Assembly: GCA_028819575.1 (NCBI GenBank)
Contig: JAPPLB010000079.1
Span: 1 to 64,000, forward strand
Direction of reading: 5' to 3'
Source of the DNA: Bryobacterales bacterium
Lineage (GTDB): Bacteria; Acidobacteriota; Terriglobia; Bryobacterales; UBA6623
Length of the DNA: 64,000 nucleotides
How positions within the stretch are numbered: position 1 is the first letter of the stretch; each line of letters opens with the position of its first letter. This document shows positions 1 to 5,809 of the stretch, piece by piece. The position numbers and the translations under genes were made by a program. The notes under the pieces are model-generated. The model was not told the DNA's origin. It searched no databases and worked only from the letters and a program-made list of their open reading frames with translations.

Positions 1-55
1 GAAGCCCTGGCGGTCGTATCGTGTGCTTCGACCGTCGGGTGGTGAGAAATGCAGG
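1..55. mobile_element. MITE family 1, copy A (right end only, cut by window edge)
   Basis: The first 55 bases match the right part of a short repeat found five more times in this window. They end in the terminal inverted repeat GTGGTGAGAAATGCA (39-53) plus GG. The left end lies outside the window. It ends directly upstream of the histidine leader, so its end may contribute promoter bases or the leader start codon. Confidence 0.8.
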
Positions 56-68
56 ATGGTCCTATACT
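40..68 (+). promoter_or_regulatory. Possible promoter for the his operon leader
   Basis: TATACT at 63-68 resembles a sigma-70 -10 box. With 17-bp spacing the -35 position is TGGTGA (40-45), a poor match that lies inside the end of the repeat element. Transcription would start near 75, only a few bases before the ATG at 79. A promoter further upstream, off the window, is equally possible. Confidence 0.3.
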
Positions 69-78
69 GAAACTTCGA

Positions 79-159
79 ATGCGTTTCGAGCGGCATCACC
101 GGCATCATCACTACGCCCATGCAAGGCGCAGCGGCCGGCGGCTGCGCGGAAAACGGTAA
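79..159 (+). CDS. hisL: Histidine operon leader peptide (His-rich, 26 residues)
   Basis: This short reading frame has six histidine codons in nine (residues 6, 7, 9, 10, 11 and 14, HHRHHHYAH) and ends in TAA at 157-159. It lies before a hairpin, a terminator and the first his gene, as expected of an attenuation leader peptide. When charged tRNA-His is scarce, ribosomes should stall over about 94-120 and change the folding of the RNA downstream. An in-frame ATG at 49, inside the end of the repeat element, would make the peptide ten residues longer. Neither start has a strong ribosome-binding site. The function is inferred from codon content and position; no similarity search was possible. Confidence 0.75.
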   Translation: MRFERHHRHHHYAHARRSGRRLRGKR

Positions 160-218
160 ACGCCCAACTTTTCCGAGACCCGAAGCCCGCCGGCATCGCG
201 CCGAGCGGGTTTTTTATT
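126..218 (+). promoter_or_regulatory. Histidine attenuator: hairpin, antiterminator and terminator
   Basis: Three mutually exclusive pairings can be read directly. First, GCGCAGC (126-132) pairs perfectly with GCTGCGC (141-147). Second, GCCGGCGG (134-141) is perfectly complementary to CCGCCGGC (187-194), which gives an antiterminator. Third, CCCGC (186-190) and CGGC (191-194) pair with GCGGG (205-209) and GCCG (200-203). That last stem is followed by TTTTTTATTTATT, a Rho-independent terminator. A ribosome stalled on the His codons would cover the arm at 126-132 and free 134-141 to disrupt the terminator. The terminator is about 20 bases before hisI. Confidence 0.75.
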
Positions 219-237
219 TATTGAAGAAAGGCGCAAC

Positions 238-629: not shown

Positions 630-1892
630 ATGCTGAAGATCATCGGGAGCACTGACGAGCCTGCTCTGGAGCGGTTGTTGAAGCGGCGTCAGACGCGTTG
701 GGACCGCGCCGAGGCAACGGTGACACCGATTCTGGAGGCCGTCCGCAAACGCGGCGACCGGGCTCTTCTGGAGTACGCTCGCAAGTTCGACGGGCTCGAA
801 AGAGCATCACTTCGCATCCCGGCTGCCGAGCTGACCTCTGCAGAAAAGGAACTTCCCAAAGACTTGCGGCGAGCCATCCAGACGGCCTCGCGTCAAATCC
901 GGCGGTTTGCCGAACTACAGAAGCCGCGCAGTTGGACGAAGTCCATCGGCGGAGCGAAGCTTGGCCAGATCGTTCGTCCCTTGTCCTCCGTGGCCGCGTA
1001 CGTTCCCGGCGGGCGCTACCCTCTGCCCTCGACGCTGATGATGACGATCATCCCGGCCCAGGTGGCGGATGTGCCCATCGTGTCCGTCGCATCGCCTGGA
1101 CCCTCGCCCGCGACGCTGGGCGTCGCCGGCCACCTTGGCGTGTCGAACTTCTTCCACATGGGCGGTGCGCAGGCCATCGCCGCATTCGCCTTCGGAACGG
1201 AATCCGTGCCTCGCGCCGAACGCATCGTCGGGCCCGGCAACATCTACGTCGCGGCGGCGAAGAAGCTGCTCGCCGGGAGCGTTGGAATCGACTTTCTTGC
1301 GGGCCCAACGGAGATTCTTTTAATCGCTCCCAAGGAGGCCACAAAGAAAGACGCCCGGGGCCTCGCCGCCGACATGCTTGCACAAGCCGAGCACGATGTA
1401 GACGCGAGCGCCGTGTTACTAACGACTTCGAAGCGTCTTGCCCGATGGGTTGCGGCGGAGGTCTTTCGGCAACTCGAAACACTGACTACGCGTGCCGTCG
1501 CATCCAAATCCATCGCACGTAACAGCGCCGTCATTGTGGTTTCGTCCTCCGACGAGGCGATGGAACTCGCAAATCGCTTCGCCCCGGAGCATCTTTCCGT
1601 TCCCGACGCCTCATGGCTGGACAGTATCAAGAACGCCGGCAGCATCTTCGTCGGGAGCTGGAGTCCTGAGGCGGCCGGTGACTACGCATCCGGCCCGAAT
1701 CACGTTCTGCCGACCGGAGGAGGCGCCACCCTGCGCGGTGGTCTGTCAGTGTTGGACTACGTAAAGATCATCTCCGTTCAGGAGTTGAACGAGAAGAGCC
1801 TGCGCGCCCTTGCACCGGCAATCACGACACTGGCGCGCACCGAGGGTCTGGAAGCCCATGCTCGATCAATTGAGGCGCGTCTCGATGGCTGA
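630..1892 (+). CDS. hisD: Histidinol dehydrogenase
   Basis: Catalyses the last two NAD-dependent oxidations, L-histidinol to L-histidine. The start was set at ATG 630 (MLKIIGS); an earlier in-frame ATG at 558 would overlap hisI deeply and adds residues unlike the family. The 420-residue length is typical. Visible family blocks are the FLAGPTEI segment, AQAEHD, and RFAPEHLSV, which carries the catalytic Glu-His pair. GPNHVLPTGG near the C-terminus is also conserved. Its stop overlaps the hisC start by 8 bases, suggesting translational coupling. Confidence 0.95.
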   Translation: MLKIIGSTDEPALERLLKRRQTRWDRAEATVTPILEAVRKRGDRALLEYARKFDGLERASLRIPAAELTSAEKELPKDLRRAIQTASRQIRRFAELQKPRSWTKSIGGAKLGQIVRPLSSVAAYVPGGRYPLPSTLMMTIIPAQVADVPIVSVASPGPSPATLGVAGHLGVSNFFHMGGAQAIAAFAFGTESVPRAERIVGPGNIYVAAAKKLLAGSVGIDFLAGPTEILLIAPKEATKKDARGLAADMLAQAEHDVDASAVLLTTSKRLARWVAAEVFRQLETLTTRAVASKSIARNSAVIVVSSSDEAMELANRFAPEHLSVPDASWLDSIKNAGSIFVGSWSPEAAGDYASGPNHVLPTGGGATLRGGLSVLDYVKIISVQELNEKSLRALAPAITTLARTEGLEAHARSIEARLDG

Positions 1893-2970
1893 CACAACCC
1901 TGACGGTGCGGCCGCAACCACGCGAAGCCATCGTGCGGATGGCCCCCTACCACCCTCCCACGAGCGGACGGCGCGGCAAGTTGCGTCTCGACTTCAACGA
2001 AAACACTGCCGGCTGCTCGCCGCGTGTGGTGGCGTTGCTGAAGCGGATTGCCGAACCTGACTTTTTTGCGATCTACCCCGAATACACCGAAGCGTCTCCA
2101 AAAATCGCGGAGTGGCTGGGACTCGGCCCCGATCAACTGCTTCTCACGAACGGCACCGACGAGGCGATCCAATGCCTCATCAACACCTACGTCGATTCAG
2201 GCGACGAGGTCCTCATCACGTGGCCGACGTATGCGATGTACCAGTTCTATGCCGAACTCGCCGGAGCGACTCCCCGGCGGGCGCCGTACCTGCTTCCGGA
2301 CCTGACATTCCCTCTCGAGGAGCTTCTGGACAGCATCTCCGAACGCACGAGCGCGATCCTTCTCGCCAATCCGAACAACCCCACCGGAGGAGCGATCGGC
2401 ATCACCGAAATCGAGCAGATCCTCGATCGGGCCGGAGAAGCGGTGGTGCTAATCGATGAAGCGTACTTCGAGTTCTACAATGTCACGGCGCTCGACCTGC
2501 TCGAGAGCCATCCAAACCTTTTTGTGAGCCGCACCTTCTCCAAGGTCTACGGCATGGCCGGATTCCGCATCGGCTGTCTGCTATCACAGGCTGAAAACGT
2601 CGCTACCGTCGCCAAAGGGCAGTCACCCTACAGCGTGAATTCGCTAGCCGCGGCTTGCTCTCTGGAGGCGATTGACGACCAGGAGTACATCAACAACTAC
2701 GTCACCGAGGCGCTCGCAGCGCGGCAAGTTCTCGCAGCCGGCCTCTCCGATCTCGGAATCAAGCACTTTCACAGCGAAGCGAATTTTGTCCTGGCGCGGT
2801 TCGGGGACCGCTCGAAGGCTGTCTGCGACCGGTTGCGCGAGCAGGGCATCCTGATACGCGACCGCAGCCACGAGATTCCCGGAACAGCCCGGATCACCGC
2901 CGGAAGGCGCGACCAAGCTGAGAAACTGCTCGAAGAGCTAAAGCAGATCCTGACCGACATTACAGGTTGA
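1885..2970 (+). CDS. hisC: Histidinol-phosphate aminotransferase
   Basis: A PLP-dependent class I/II aminotransferase that converts imidazole-acetol phosphate to histidinol phosphate with glutamate as donor. The start at ATG 1885 (MADTTLTV) overlaps the end of hisD and gives 361 residues, normal for HisC. The N-terminal LDFNENTAG motif binds substrate in this family, LIDEAYFEF holds the PLP-contacting Asp and Tyr, and [16 protein letters not shown] contains the Schiff-base lysine. Its place between hisD and hisB supports HisC over other aminotransferases of the same fold. Confidence 0.93.
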
Positions 2971-2977
2971 GCGCATC

Positions 2978-3577
2978 ATGAAAAAAGCTTCCATCGTCAG
3001 GAATACCAAGGAAACGCAGATCCGAGGCCAACTGCGCATCACGGGGAAAGGCGAGTACAACGTCTCGACGGGAATCCATTTCTTCGACCACATGCTCGAG
3101 TTGTTCGCCAGGCATGGCGGCTTCGATCTCGATCTCGAGGCTAGCGGCGACCTCAACGTTGACCAGCACCACACCGTCGAAGACACAGGGATCGTGCTCG
3201 GCCAATGCTTCTCAAAAGCTCTCGGAGATCGAGTCGGCATCAACCGCGCCGGCTACTTCGTGATGCCGATGGACGAGTCCCTGGCCGTCGTTGCGGTCGA
3301 TCTCAGCGGGCGCCCGGCGCTGGTCTATCACGCGCCCACGCGTTTCCGTCTCGTCGGCGATTTGCAAACCGAGCTGCTGCATGACTTCTTCGACGGTTTC
3401 GTGAACCACTGCGGCTGCAACCTGCACGCCCGCGTGCTGTACGGACGATCGAACCATCACAAGATCGAAGGACTGTTCAAGTGTTTCGCGCGGGCCATGC
3501 GCTTTGCCTGCTCGACGGACGAACGGCTGAAAGACCAGCTCCCGAGCACCAAGGGATTGCTGGAGGTGAAAGCGTAG
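2978..3577 (+). CDS. hisB: Imidazoleglycerol-phosphate dehydratase
   Basis: Dehydrates imidazole-glycerol phosphate to imidazole-acetol phosphate, using Mn ions. The 199-residue protein is the monofunctional dehydratase without the histidinol-phosphatase domain of enterobacteria. The two pseudo-repeats each carry the metal-binding signature: [10 protein letters not shown] near residue 66 and [10 protein letters not shown] near residue 155. Only seven bases separate it from hisC. The histidinol-phosphate phosphatase must be encoded elsewhere. Confidence 0.95.
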
Positions 3578-3581
3578 CTCC

Positions 3582-4184
3582 ATGATCGCCATCTTTGACT
3601 ACGGTGCCGGCAACCTTCGGTCCGTCGAGAATGCCCTCGACGCGATCGAAGTGAAGTATGAGATCGTCAACGACGCCGAAGGCTTGGCCCGGGCCGAGCG
3701 GATCATCCTGCCCGGGGTCGGCCACTTCGGACAGTTGATCCGGTCGCTCGACTCGCTCGGTGTTCGCGAAGCCTTCAAGGAACGCATCTCCGCCGGCGTG
3801 CCTTTTCTCGGCATCTGCTTGGGACTGCACGCCCTGTTCGAGCGCAGCGAAGAAGCACCGGAACTCGACGGCCTTGGCGTCTATCCCGGTGAAGTCAAGC
3901 GGTTCCCCAAGGACGCACGCGTGCCTCACATGGGTTGGAACGAACTGGAATCGCAGGGCAGTCCGCGGCTGCTCGCCAACCTCCCGTCCCGGCCTTACGT
4001 CTATTTCGCACACAGTTACTACGTGCCCGAAGAGATAGGCAGTGACAATTCAGCCGCCTTATGCGAATACGGCGTTCGCTACACGGCGGCCCTGGAAGCC
4101 GGAAACGTGTTCGGCGTGCAGTTCCACCCCGAAAAGTCCGGCTCGGTCGGCCAGCAGATTGTCCGTAACTTCCTCGCATGCTAG
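3582..4184 (+). CDS. hisH: Imidazole glycerol phosphate synthase, glutaminase subunit
   Basis: A class I glutamine amidotransferase that releases ammonia from glutamine and channels it to HisF. The N-terminal [14 protein letters not shown] is the HisH signature. The nucleophilic Cys lies in GICLGLH (about residue 79), and the catalytic His-Glu pair in QFHPEKSG near the C-terminus. The length is 200 residues. The stop overlaps the hisF start by seven bases, in line with the 1:1 complex the two proteins form. Confidence 0.95.
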
Positions 4185-4942
4185 CGAAGCGCATCATTCC
4201 CTGCCTGGACGTCAAAGCGGGGCGCGTTGTCAAAGGCGTCAACTTCGTCGAGCTGCGCGACGCGGGCGATCCGGTCGAGTTGGCCAACGTCTATAACCGC
4301 GACGGAGCGGACGAGCTGGTCTTCCTCGACATCACCGCCTCCAGCGACCGCCGGGAAATCATGAAAGACGTCGTCGAGCGGACCGCCCGGCAGGTCTTCA
4401 TTCCGCTCACGGTAGGCGGCGGCATCCGCTGCGTCTCAGACGCCCGGGACATCCTGGTCGTCGGCGCGGACAAGGTATCGGTCAACACCGCCGCTGTCGA
4501 GCGCCCAGAGTTGATCACCGAACTCTCCGAGGAGTTCGGCGCGCAGGCGGTCGTTCTCGCCATAGACGCTCGCCGCAACGGTCCCAGCCACTGGAATGTC
4601 TACACCTATGGAGGCCGCAAAGACACGGGTATCGACGCCGTTGAGTGGGCCGCTCGCGGCGAAGGGCTCGGCGCCGGTGAAATACTGCTCACGTCGATGG
4701 ACCGTGACGGCACTCAAGTCGGCTTTGACTGCGACCTTACCCGCGCCATCTCCCGGAACACGCAAATCCCGGTCATCGCGAGCGGCGGGGGCGGCCGGCC
4801 ACAGGATTTCATTAACGTACTCGACGATGGAGAGGCCGACGCCGCATTGGCTGCGTCGATCTTCCATTATGGGACGCACACCGTCATCGGTCTCAAGCAG
4901 ACGCTCAAGCAACATGGCGTCGTGGTGCGTACGACGGGCTAG
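4178..4942 (+). CDS. hisF: Imidazole glycerol phosphate synthase, cyclase subunit
   Basis: A (beta/alpha)8 barrel that uses ammonia from HisH to close the imidazole ring and release [21 protein letters not shown] at the N-terminus holds the first catalytic Asp, and [15 protein letters not shown] holds the second. The phosphate-binding segments VGGGIR and ASGGGG are present in each half-barrel. The 254-residue length is standard. It is separated from hisA by 141 bases, whereas the earlier his genes overlap or nearly touch. Confidence 0.95.
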
Positions 4943-5083
4943 ATCGACCGTGCCACTCTACGGCTACTCTCTTGAAAGGGCAGTCCGCTGGTTCACGATC
5001 GAAGAACTTGACTCCAGAAGCTGGAATATTCCGGAATCATTCCAATTCCATAGCCGGCAAGCGAAGAGCCGTCTCACAACTCC
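4943..5083. other. hisF-hisA spacer with GGAAT/ATTCC half-sites
   Basis: This is the only sizeable gap in the his operon. It contains the palindrome GGAATATTCC (5023-5032), followed at once by GGAATCATTCC (5033-5043) and a further ATTCC. That pattern is unlike the GC-rich surroundings and could be a protein-binding site or a processing hairpin. No promoter with both boxes was found. Confidence 0.3.
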
Positions 5084-5809
5084 ATGATCATTCCCTGCAT
5101 CGATCTGATGGGCGGCAAAGTTGTCCAATTGATCCAAGGACGCGAAAAGGCGCTGGAAGGCGAGTCGCCCGAAGTGATGCTCGAAAAGTTCGCGGCCTTC
5201 CCCGAGATTCAGGTGATTGATCTCGATGCGGCGATGGGCAGGGGGTCGAACAACGACATCGTTCTGAAGTTGGCATGCAGCGCTGTCGTGCGGGTGGGCG
5301 GCGGTGTCCGGTCGGTCGAGCGGGCCCGTGAACTCGTCGAAGCCGGCGCCTCCAAGGTGATCATCGGTACTTCCGCTTTTGATGCAAACGGCGTCCGACA
5401 TGACTTCCTGAGGGAAGTCAGCCGGGAGATCGGGAAGGATCGGCTCCTATCCGCACTTGATTCAAAAAACGGGCATATCGTCGTCAAGGGCTGGCAAGAG
5501 GCCACTTCATGGCGGGCGGAAGAGGTCATTGACCAACTCGAACCCTATAGTGTGGGATTCCTCTGTACCTACGTCGACAAAGAGGGGATGCTGCAGGGGA
5601 CTGACCTCGATTGGTATCGCCGTCTCCGCCTCGCCACGCGGCTGGAGTTGACCGCCGCCGGAGGCATTACCACCATCGAAGAGATCAAATCGCTCGACGA
5701 ACTCTCAATCCACGCAGCACTGGGAATGGCGATCTACACCGGACGTCTGGATCTCGGCGAATTGACAGACCTGCAAAATCAAAGCTCCCGTGGATGCACG
5801 GGAGCCTGA
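5084..5809 (+). CDS. hisA: Phosphoribosylformimino-AICAR-phosphate isomerase
   Basis: An Amadori isomerase of histidine synthesis and a (beta/alpha)8 barrel related to HisF. The N-terminal MIIPCIDLMGGKVVQL carries the first catalytic Asp, and YVDKEGMLQGTDLDW carries the second acidic region. VGGGVRS and AAGGITT are the two phosphate-binding loops. The length is 241 residues. The last eight codons overlap a hairpin that acts as terminator for the convergent dksA gene. HisA follows hisF instead of the common hisH-hisA-hisF order. Confidence 0.93.
   Translation: MIIPCIDLMGGKVVQLIQGREKALEGESPEVMLEKFAAFPEIQVIDLDAAMGRGSNNDIVLKLACSAVVRVGGGVRSVERARELVEAGASKVIIGTSAFDANGVRHDFLREVSREIGKDRLLSALDSKNGHIVVKGWQEATSWRAEEVIDQLEPYSVGFLCTYVDKEGMLQGTDLDWYRRLRLATRLELTAAGGITTIEEIKSLDELSIHAALGMAIYTGRLDLGELTDLQNQSSRGCTGA
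5777..5805 (-). terminator. Rho-independent terminator of dksA inside the 3' end of hisA
   Basis: Perfect 9-bp stem (5784-5792 with 5797-5805) and 4-base loop. Read on the minus strand, it is followed by TTTGATTTT (5783-5775), the expected U-rich tail. On the plus strand there is no T-run, so it mainly serves the minus-strand dksA gene although it lies in hisA coding sequence. Confidence 0.7.

Follow-up and report, generated by a model that had tools for sequence, protein, structure and literature searches.

The region preceding the his operon of a Bryobacterales bacterium very likely contains a ribosome-mediated transcription attenuator, as judged from its sequence and from comparison with relatives. 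By the same comparison the element belongs to the classical type of attenuators and is widely conserved in Acidobacteriota, and the mRNA of its leader peptide appears to lack a 5' untranslated region. The analyzed stretch of DNA, referred to as the window, comprises 64,000 nucleotides, with which contig C133 begins; the genome has a size of 5.4 Mb and a completeness of 98.7%. From the bases alone, an initial sequence-only reading had guessed an acidobacterial host, which is borne out by the assignment to Bryobacterales and by the closest named HisI records originating from the MAGs 'Bryobacterales bacterium APA_bin_29' (97% identity) and 'Acidobacteria bacterium casp150-mb.136' (89%). The operon is transcribed from the forward strand, as are all features described below, with the order hisI-D-C-B-H-F-A. 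Its first gene hisI, coding for phosphoribosyl-AMP cyclohydrolase (238–612; NF000768, 147.9 bits over cut-off), is followed by hisD, hisC, hisB, hisH, hisF and hisA (630–5809, identified by NCBIfam matches), and the attenuator is located upstream, between promoter elements that are seen in relatives and hisI. In many genomes of the order's other families, such as G196, G194 and G161, hisG directly follows hisI; in the family of the window hisG is found elsewhere and is matched by its family model only as two pieces. No His leader was detected among 13 examined hisG upstream regions.

The leader peptide is encoded at positions 79–159 (MRFERHHRHHHYAHARRSGRRLRGKR, with its stop codon at 157–159) and is probably translated from a leaderless mRNA. 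Six of nine consecutive codons (94–120) specify histidine (94–99, 103–111 and 118–120), as had been recognized in the sequence-only reading, and this run of regulatory codons is kept in relatives. The start of the leader, in contrast, had been wrongly assigned to position 49. The in-frame ATG at this position resides in the end of a repeat (1–55) and is itself missing in relatives that lack the repeat, and the leader instead begins with the ATG at 79–81, whose location relative to the –10 box is fixed in relatives; all other base-level statements of the earlier reading are correct. Upstream of hisI in G002 (L155 / L031), the equivalent position holds ACG in place of ATG. The terminator is retained there together with a portion of the His run (H-A-H-H), and the change would be explained either by decay or by leaderless initiation at a near-cognate codon.

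Three segments define the mutually exclusive pairings of the leader RNA. Segment 1 (CCGGC, 99–103) is located within the His codons and pairs with GCCGG at 134–138 if the RNA is free of ribosomes, as suggested by folding and by the comparative analysis described below. Segment 2 (GCCGGCGG, 134–141) forms the 5' strand of the antiterminator and segment 3 (CCGCCGGC, 187–194) both its 3' strand and the 5' arm of the terminator, with the assignment of either segment resting on duplex complementarity, folding and covariation. The intrinsic terminator (186–218) consists of a stem (186–194/200–209) with one bulged base, in which the arms CCCGC CGGC and GCCG A GCGGG enclose the loop ATCGC (186–209), and a subsequent T-run (TTTTTTATTT), and it is conserved in the family. 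This terminator, the perfect complementarity over 8 bp between 134–141 and 187–194 and a 7-bp hairpin at 126–147 (arms GCGCAGC/GCTGCGC at 126–132/141–147) had all been noticed before and are found in the sequence as described. The hairpin holds segment 2 in its loop and offers an alternative protector (P 0.87 for RNA free from 124). As a conserved stem between segments 1 and 2 it is unsupported in the role of the main protector, for which the pairing of leader codons with segment 2 is favored.

To describe the consequences of ribosome position, we used an equilibrium model, which serves as a crude guide, to fold the RNA of the window after masking the 5' portion that a ribosome would cover. 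With the RNA free from 100–118, the antiterminator (134–141:187–194) is predicted to form with P 0.86–0.88 and the terminator with P ≤0.01, and for a stall at the first His codon, which is the situation to be expected, the terminator is predicted at P = 0.00. With the RNA free from 138 or beyond, which includes a ribosome at the stop codon, the terminator reaches P 0.99–1.00. If no ribosome is present (RNA free from 74 or 90), both the protecting pairing 99–103:134–138 and the terminator are obtained with P 0.42–0.57. The model again favors termination for RNA free from 124 or 130, and stalls late in the His run are less clear-cut.

These predictions suggest the following mechanism. RNA polymerase would initiate at the ATG at 79 or only a few bases away from it, as judged from its spacing to the –10 box, which would leave no room for a Shine-Dalgarno sequence and result in leaderless translation. 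When charging of His-tRNA is low, the ribosome would stall at 94–120 and cover segment 1, thereby allowing segment 2 to pair with the emerging segment 3, so that the terminator would be blocked and the his genes transcribed. When histidine is plentiful, the ribosome would instead reach the stop codon at 157–159 with segment 2 being either covered or re-paired, and the terminator at 186–209 would form and end transcription before hisI. In RNA not engaged by a ribosome, segment 1 may pair with segment 2, with the terminator favored about half the time. The earlier proposal that stalling at the His codons would favor antitermination is thus supported by the folding of the window RNA and by covariation across the phylum.

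The conservation of the His run was investigated in 121 acidobacterial regions upstream of hisI, consisting of the window and 80 regions in a first set and 40 in a second, where a leader was defined by at least three His in nine codons. By this measure 86 of the 121 regions contain a His-run leader (62/81 in the first and 24/40 in the second set), numbers that do not represent unbiased frequencies as the regions were retrieved by HisI similarity. The conservation before hisI of relatives that the sequence-only reading had proposed to look for is thus observed, and a terminator, as identified by the criterion of our script, is present in 80 of the 86 leader-bearing regions. Of the 18 genomes belonging to the same family as the window, 6 have the leader, and it recurs in almost every genome sampled from the order's other families, in all 21 sampled genomes of f4, a family of the same class and another order, and in several further families of the phylum. 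Within the family of the window, genus g6 (L160-L170, 11 genomes) lacks both leader and terminator before hisI, and control of the his operon must therefore differ in this genus. Many distantly related families yielded no leader; in these, the operon may begin with a gene other than hisI. A his leader of acidobacterial type (MLITHVAHHHVHHVTQRANL) is also contained in L048 (JAURJB010000009), a contig labelled Acidimicrobiales whose HisI is 55% identical, which would be accounted for by either a mislabelled MAG contig or a transfer.

The promoter of the leader has a peculiar organization in the window. A –10 box with the sequence TATACT is located at 63–68, as defined by its sequence, by comparison to L028 and by its position relative to the leader, and the preceding bases 1–55 are the right end of a MITE-like repeat, inside which the contig starts (49 own-genome matches). 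The repeat is about 177 bp long, carries the terminal inverted repeats CCTGCATTTCTCACCAC / GTGGTGAGAAATGCAGG and exists in dozens of copies in the genome, with bases 1–55 matching 48 other sites. Full copies are found at L002 and L005 (two of 177 bp were read) and a left end also at G000 C30:1-91, and contigs of the genome break at copies of the element. In L028, a relative without the insertion, the promoter reads TTGACC-17 nt-TATACT-GAAACTTCGA-ATG. The matching upstream flank in the genome of the window is found at the end of C30, where TTGACCGTTTGTCGCCTGA with TTGACC is followed by the left end of the MITE, and the right end in the window stops 8 bases short of TATACT. The MITE thus most likely separates the native –35 element on C30 from the –10 box at 63–68 and probably alters the strength of the promoter in this genome. 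We found no consensus sigma-70 promoter in the window, and the best –35-like hexamers within the repeat match at 3/6 positions with a spacing of 17 nt or at 4/6 with 15 nt. A generic promoter and terminator scanner gave zero matches in 1–400, which is uninformative as negative evidence because its rules on loop and tail, together with the bulge, miss the terminator and the –35 element is displaced.

The interrupted promoter raises the question of whether the attenuator, while real in the lineage, is decaying in the window, with the MITE having disabled the promoter and the operon being transcribed by read-through or from a new promoter provided by the repeat end. Such decay would be in line with the TTGACC flank on C30 running into the left end of the MITE, the window opening within its right end and the poor –35-like hexamers offered by the repeat. 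However, the leader ORF, the pairing segments and the terminator are intact and near-identical to the relative without the insertion, and we infer that C30 and C133 are neighbors from a MAG assembly whose contigs end at repeats. We therefore consider a decaying copy as conceivable but rather doubtful, and a working attenuator as the preferred interpretation.

Across the leaders, the distance between –10 box and start codon is constrained. A TANNNT box ending 8–10 nt upstream of an in-frame ATG is found in 82 of 86 leaders, compared to 3.9 expected from shuffled upstream sequence, and 42 of the 86 show at least 4/6 bases of TTGACA at a spacing of 16–18 nt. As the distance from a –10 box to the transcription start site usually amounts to 5–8 nt, the 5' untranslated region would be confined to 0–5 nt. 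In S. lividans, the equivalent distance averages 6.3 nt (PMC8079986). In alignments on the start codon, pyrimidines are conserved at –3 to –1, and a Shine-Dalgarno-like motif was detected in 7 of 62 leaders checked. Together, the position of the promoter indicates that the his leader mRNA is very probably leaderless, a mode of initiation that has been predicted for 9.7–19.4% of genes in three Acidobacteria genomes (mean 13%, PMC3160421). The element had initially been called a 'textbook' attenuator, a description that holds for its classical architecture and that has to be qualified with respect to this presumed leaderless translation. It could be argued that the TANNNT box is coincidental and that a short 5' untranslated region extends from a start site further upstream, in light of the purine-rich stretch near the ATG in the 7 of 62 leaders and of a transcription start that is placed by the spacing to the –10 box and not by mapped ends. 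We regard this as unlikely, since it would leave unexplained the large excess of boxes at 8–10 nt, the pyrimidines before the ATG, the TTGACA-like –35 elements in 42 leaders and the general scarcity of Shine-Dalgarno motifs in a phylum with a predicted share of leaderless genes.

A different concern relates to the pairing itself. For the window taken by itself, a duplex of equal strength arises in 4% of dinucleotide-shuffled versions of the sequence between the segments, and at the stall position the terminator is sequestered to the same degree in 2%. Because such p-values of individual sequences are too weak on their own, we turned to a self-versus-cross test, in which the stretch from behind the last His codon to the terminator was paired with its own and with all other terminator 5' arms in 80 leaders, after removal of row and column means. 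Pairing within the same genome (–18.6 kcal/mol) is stronger than pairing across genomes (–15.9 kcal/mol) and by 2.67 kcal/mol better than expected, corresponding to a permutation z of –10.1. Taken separately, f4 and the order's other families each show the effect (p = 1e-4 in both), but it is not seen in the window's family alone (p = 0.29), whose six leaders are too few and too alike. In f4, the duplex extends up to 11 bp and for the majority of members starts 8 nt downstream of the final His codon; a single position of it is occupied by alternatives such as T-A, T-G and C-G. A similar preference is seen for the leader codons, which form their strongest pairing with segment 2 of the same leader (z = –6.4). 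The alternative pairings, whose behavior in relatives had been put forward as a check, thus covary on both sides of the switch. The relatedness of the sequences inflates these z-scores and renders nominal p-values too small, but five control targets of equal relatedness (the reversed arm, two stretches of hisI, a promoter stretch and the 3' arm of the terminator) show no effect in the same direction.

Folding of 56 leaders points in the same direction, with a mean terminator P of 0.60 for a stall at the His codons compared to 0.95 at the stop codon and to 0.90 at the stall after shuffling of the intervening sequence. The reduction relative to shuffled sequences is significant (Wilcoxon p = 0.0004) and includes 19 strong switches. 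For the remaining 37 of the 56 leaders a strong switch is not predicted at equilibrium, and kinetic arguments are consequently needed. The covariation largely refutes the notion of an ordinary terminator of an upstream unit that by chance follows a His-rich ORF, with hisI being expressed from an undetected promoter further downstream. Although GC-rich sequence eases an 8-bp complementarity, as reflected in the 4% of shuffles, and the window is devoid of a consensus promoter, a coincidence would neither account for the preference for the own-genome arm nor for a His-run leader with fixed distance from the –10 box across the phylum, and the TTGACA-TANNNT promoter of relatives is located upstream of the leader. 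We thus consider a chance arrangement very improbable and ascribe the pattern to a ribosome-mediated attenuator. Finally, sensing of histidine by a T-box or by some other element that binds a ligand or a protein, as described for his genes in Firmicutes (PMC9413887), can virtually be dismissed, as we found nothing in its support, no Rfam family exceeds its threshold in the window, a scan of 400 bases returned only a sub-threshold Trp_leader (16.3 of 41 bits) besides chance matches, and conserved His codons would be expected only if translation were the sensor.

The relationship to known attenuators was assessed with covariance models. At gathering thresholds, an Rfam scan of the whole window identified nothing, and a lax scan of 1–400 contained no match to the His_leader RF00514 at E up to 10 (cut-off 49 bits). 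Scoring with this model, as envisaged in the sequence-only reading, also gave no match in any of 41 Bryobacterales genomes, whereas the controls E. coli and C. glutamicum did match, which places the acidobacterial element outside of this covariance family despite the same inferred working mode. The enterobacterial his attenuator described by RF00514 similarly combines a His-run leader with mutually exclusive antiterminator and terminator and the same inferred logic. It differs by preceding hisG instead of hisI, and the acidobacterial leader is in turn distinguished by its apparently leaderless mRNA and by a segment 2 that is located inside the C-terminal codons of the leader. The Trp_leader RF00513 shows a weak likeness in layout (16.3 bits at E = 1.1, with a cut-off of 41), but contains Trp codons, and the acidobacterial element with its His codons and his operon is not a member.

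A leader ORF at the 5' end of the mRNA, with regulatory codons followed by hairpins as in the acidobacterial case, has been described for LeuL, ThrL and MetL of S. lividans (PMC8079986) and trpL of S. meliloti (PMC7298713), which respond to other amino acids and belong to other phyla. Several of the leaderless Streptomyces leaders are without a clear terminator, in contrast to the acidobacterial leaders, where it is nearly always present. Further counterparts for histidine are attenuators of the B. cereus group, Peptostreptococcaceae and Erysipelotrichales, which also contain a leader with His codons and a terminator/antiterminator and were predicted by comparison in another phylum, with no leaderless start being mentioned in the accessible part of the study (PMC9413887). 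A survey from 2010 had previously found leader-peptide systems to be known only from Proteobacteria and Actinobacteria, had added a case from Firmicutes and had listed almost no predicted acidobacterial attenuator with an associated function (PMC2965389), and his operons of Firmicutes were added in 2022 (PMC9413887). In a study from 2005, no conserved RNA structures were found before actinobacterial histidine operons (PMC1262725). Among the open-access papers searched, none combines Acidobacteria, the his operon and attenuation, which may differ for the subscription literature.

Other amino acid operons of Bryobacterales were inspected for comparable elements. The regions upstream of trpE and leuA contain no convincing leaderless leader with a terminator. 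About 100–300 nt upstream of ilvB, a short ORF rich in Ile, Leu and Val, such as SILVIVGIIRIGVAVPAPA, is found in about a third of 30 loci (L298, L301, L309, L315 and others), with a terminator of the type GGGCCACC...GGTGGCCCTTTTT located downstream in the loci that were read and a –10 box 9–10 nt before the ATG in some. These features make a branched-chain attenuator a probable assignment.

The described element represents a known kind of switch in a new phylum, and leaderless attenuators are known elsewhere for other amino acids. We consider it fairly likely that attenuation of his operons in Acidobacteriota is old and widely shared, that it proceeds from a leaderless leader mRNA and that it constitutes a separate RNA family with a probably independent origin. 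If so, the first ribosome would load onto the 5'-terminal bases of the nascent transcript and thereby couple the sensing of histidine to the start of transcription. Leaderless attenuators have so far been scattered cases, whereas the presumed leaderless start described here looks fixed over much of a phylum, and whether this mode of initiation, with a single ribosome at the nascent 5' end, is suited for attenuation can now be directly tested. The acidobacterial his leaders could found a new Rfam family, and for Acidobacteriota, abundant soil bacteria whose gene regulation has hardly been studied, they would provide a defined and testable amino acid switch.
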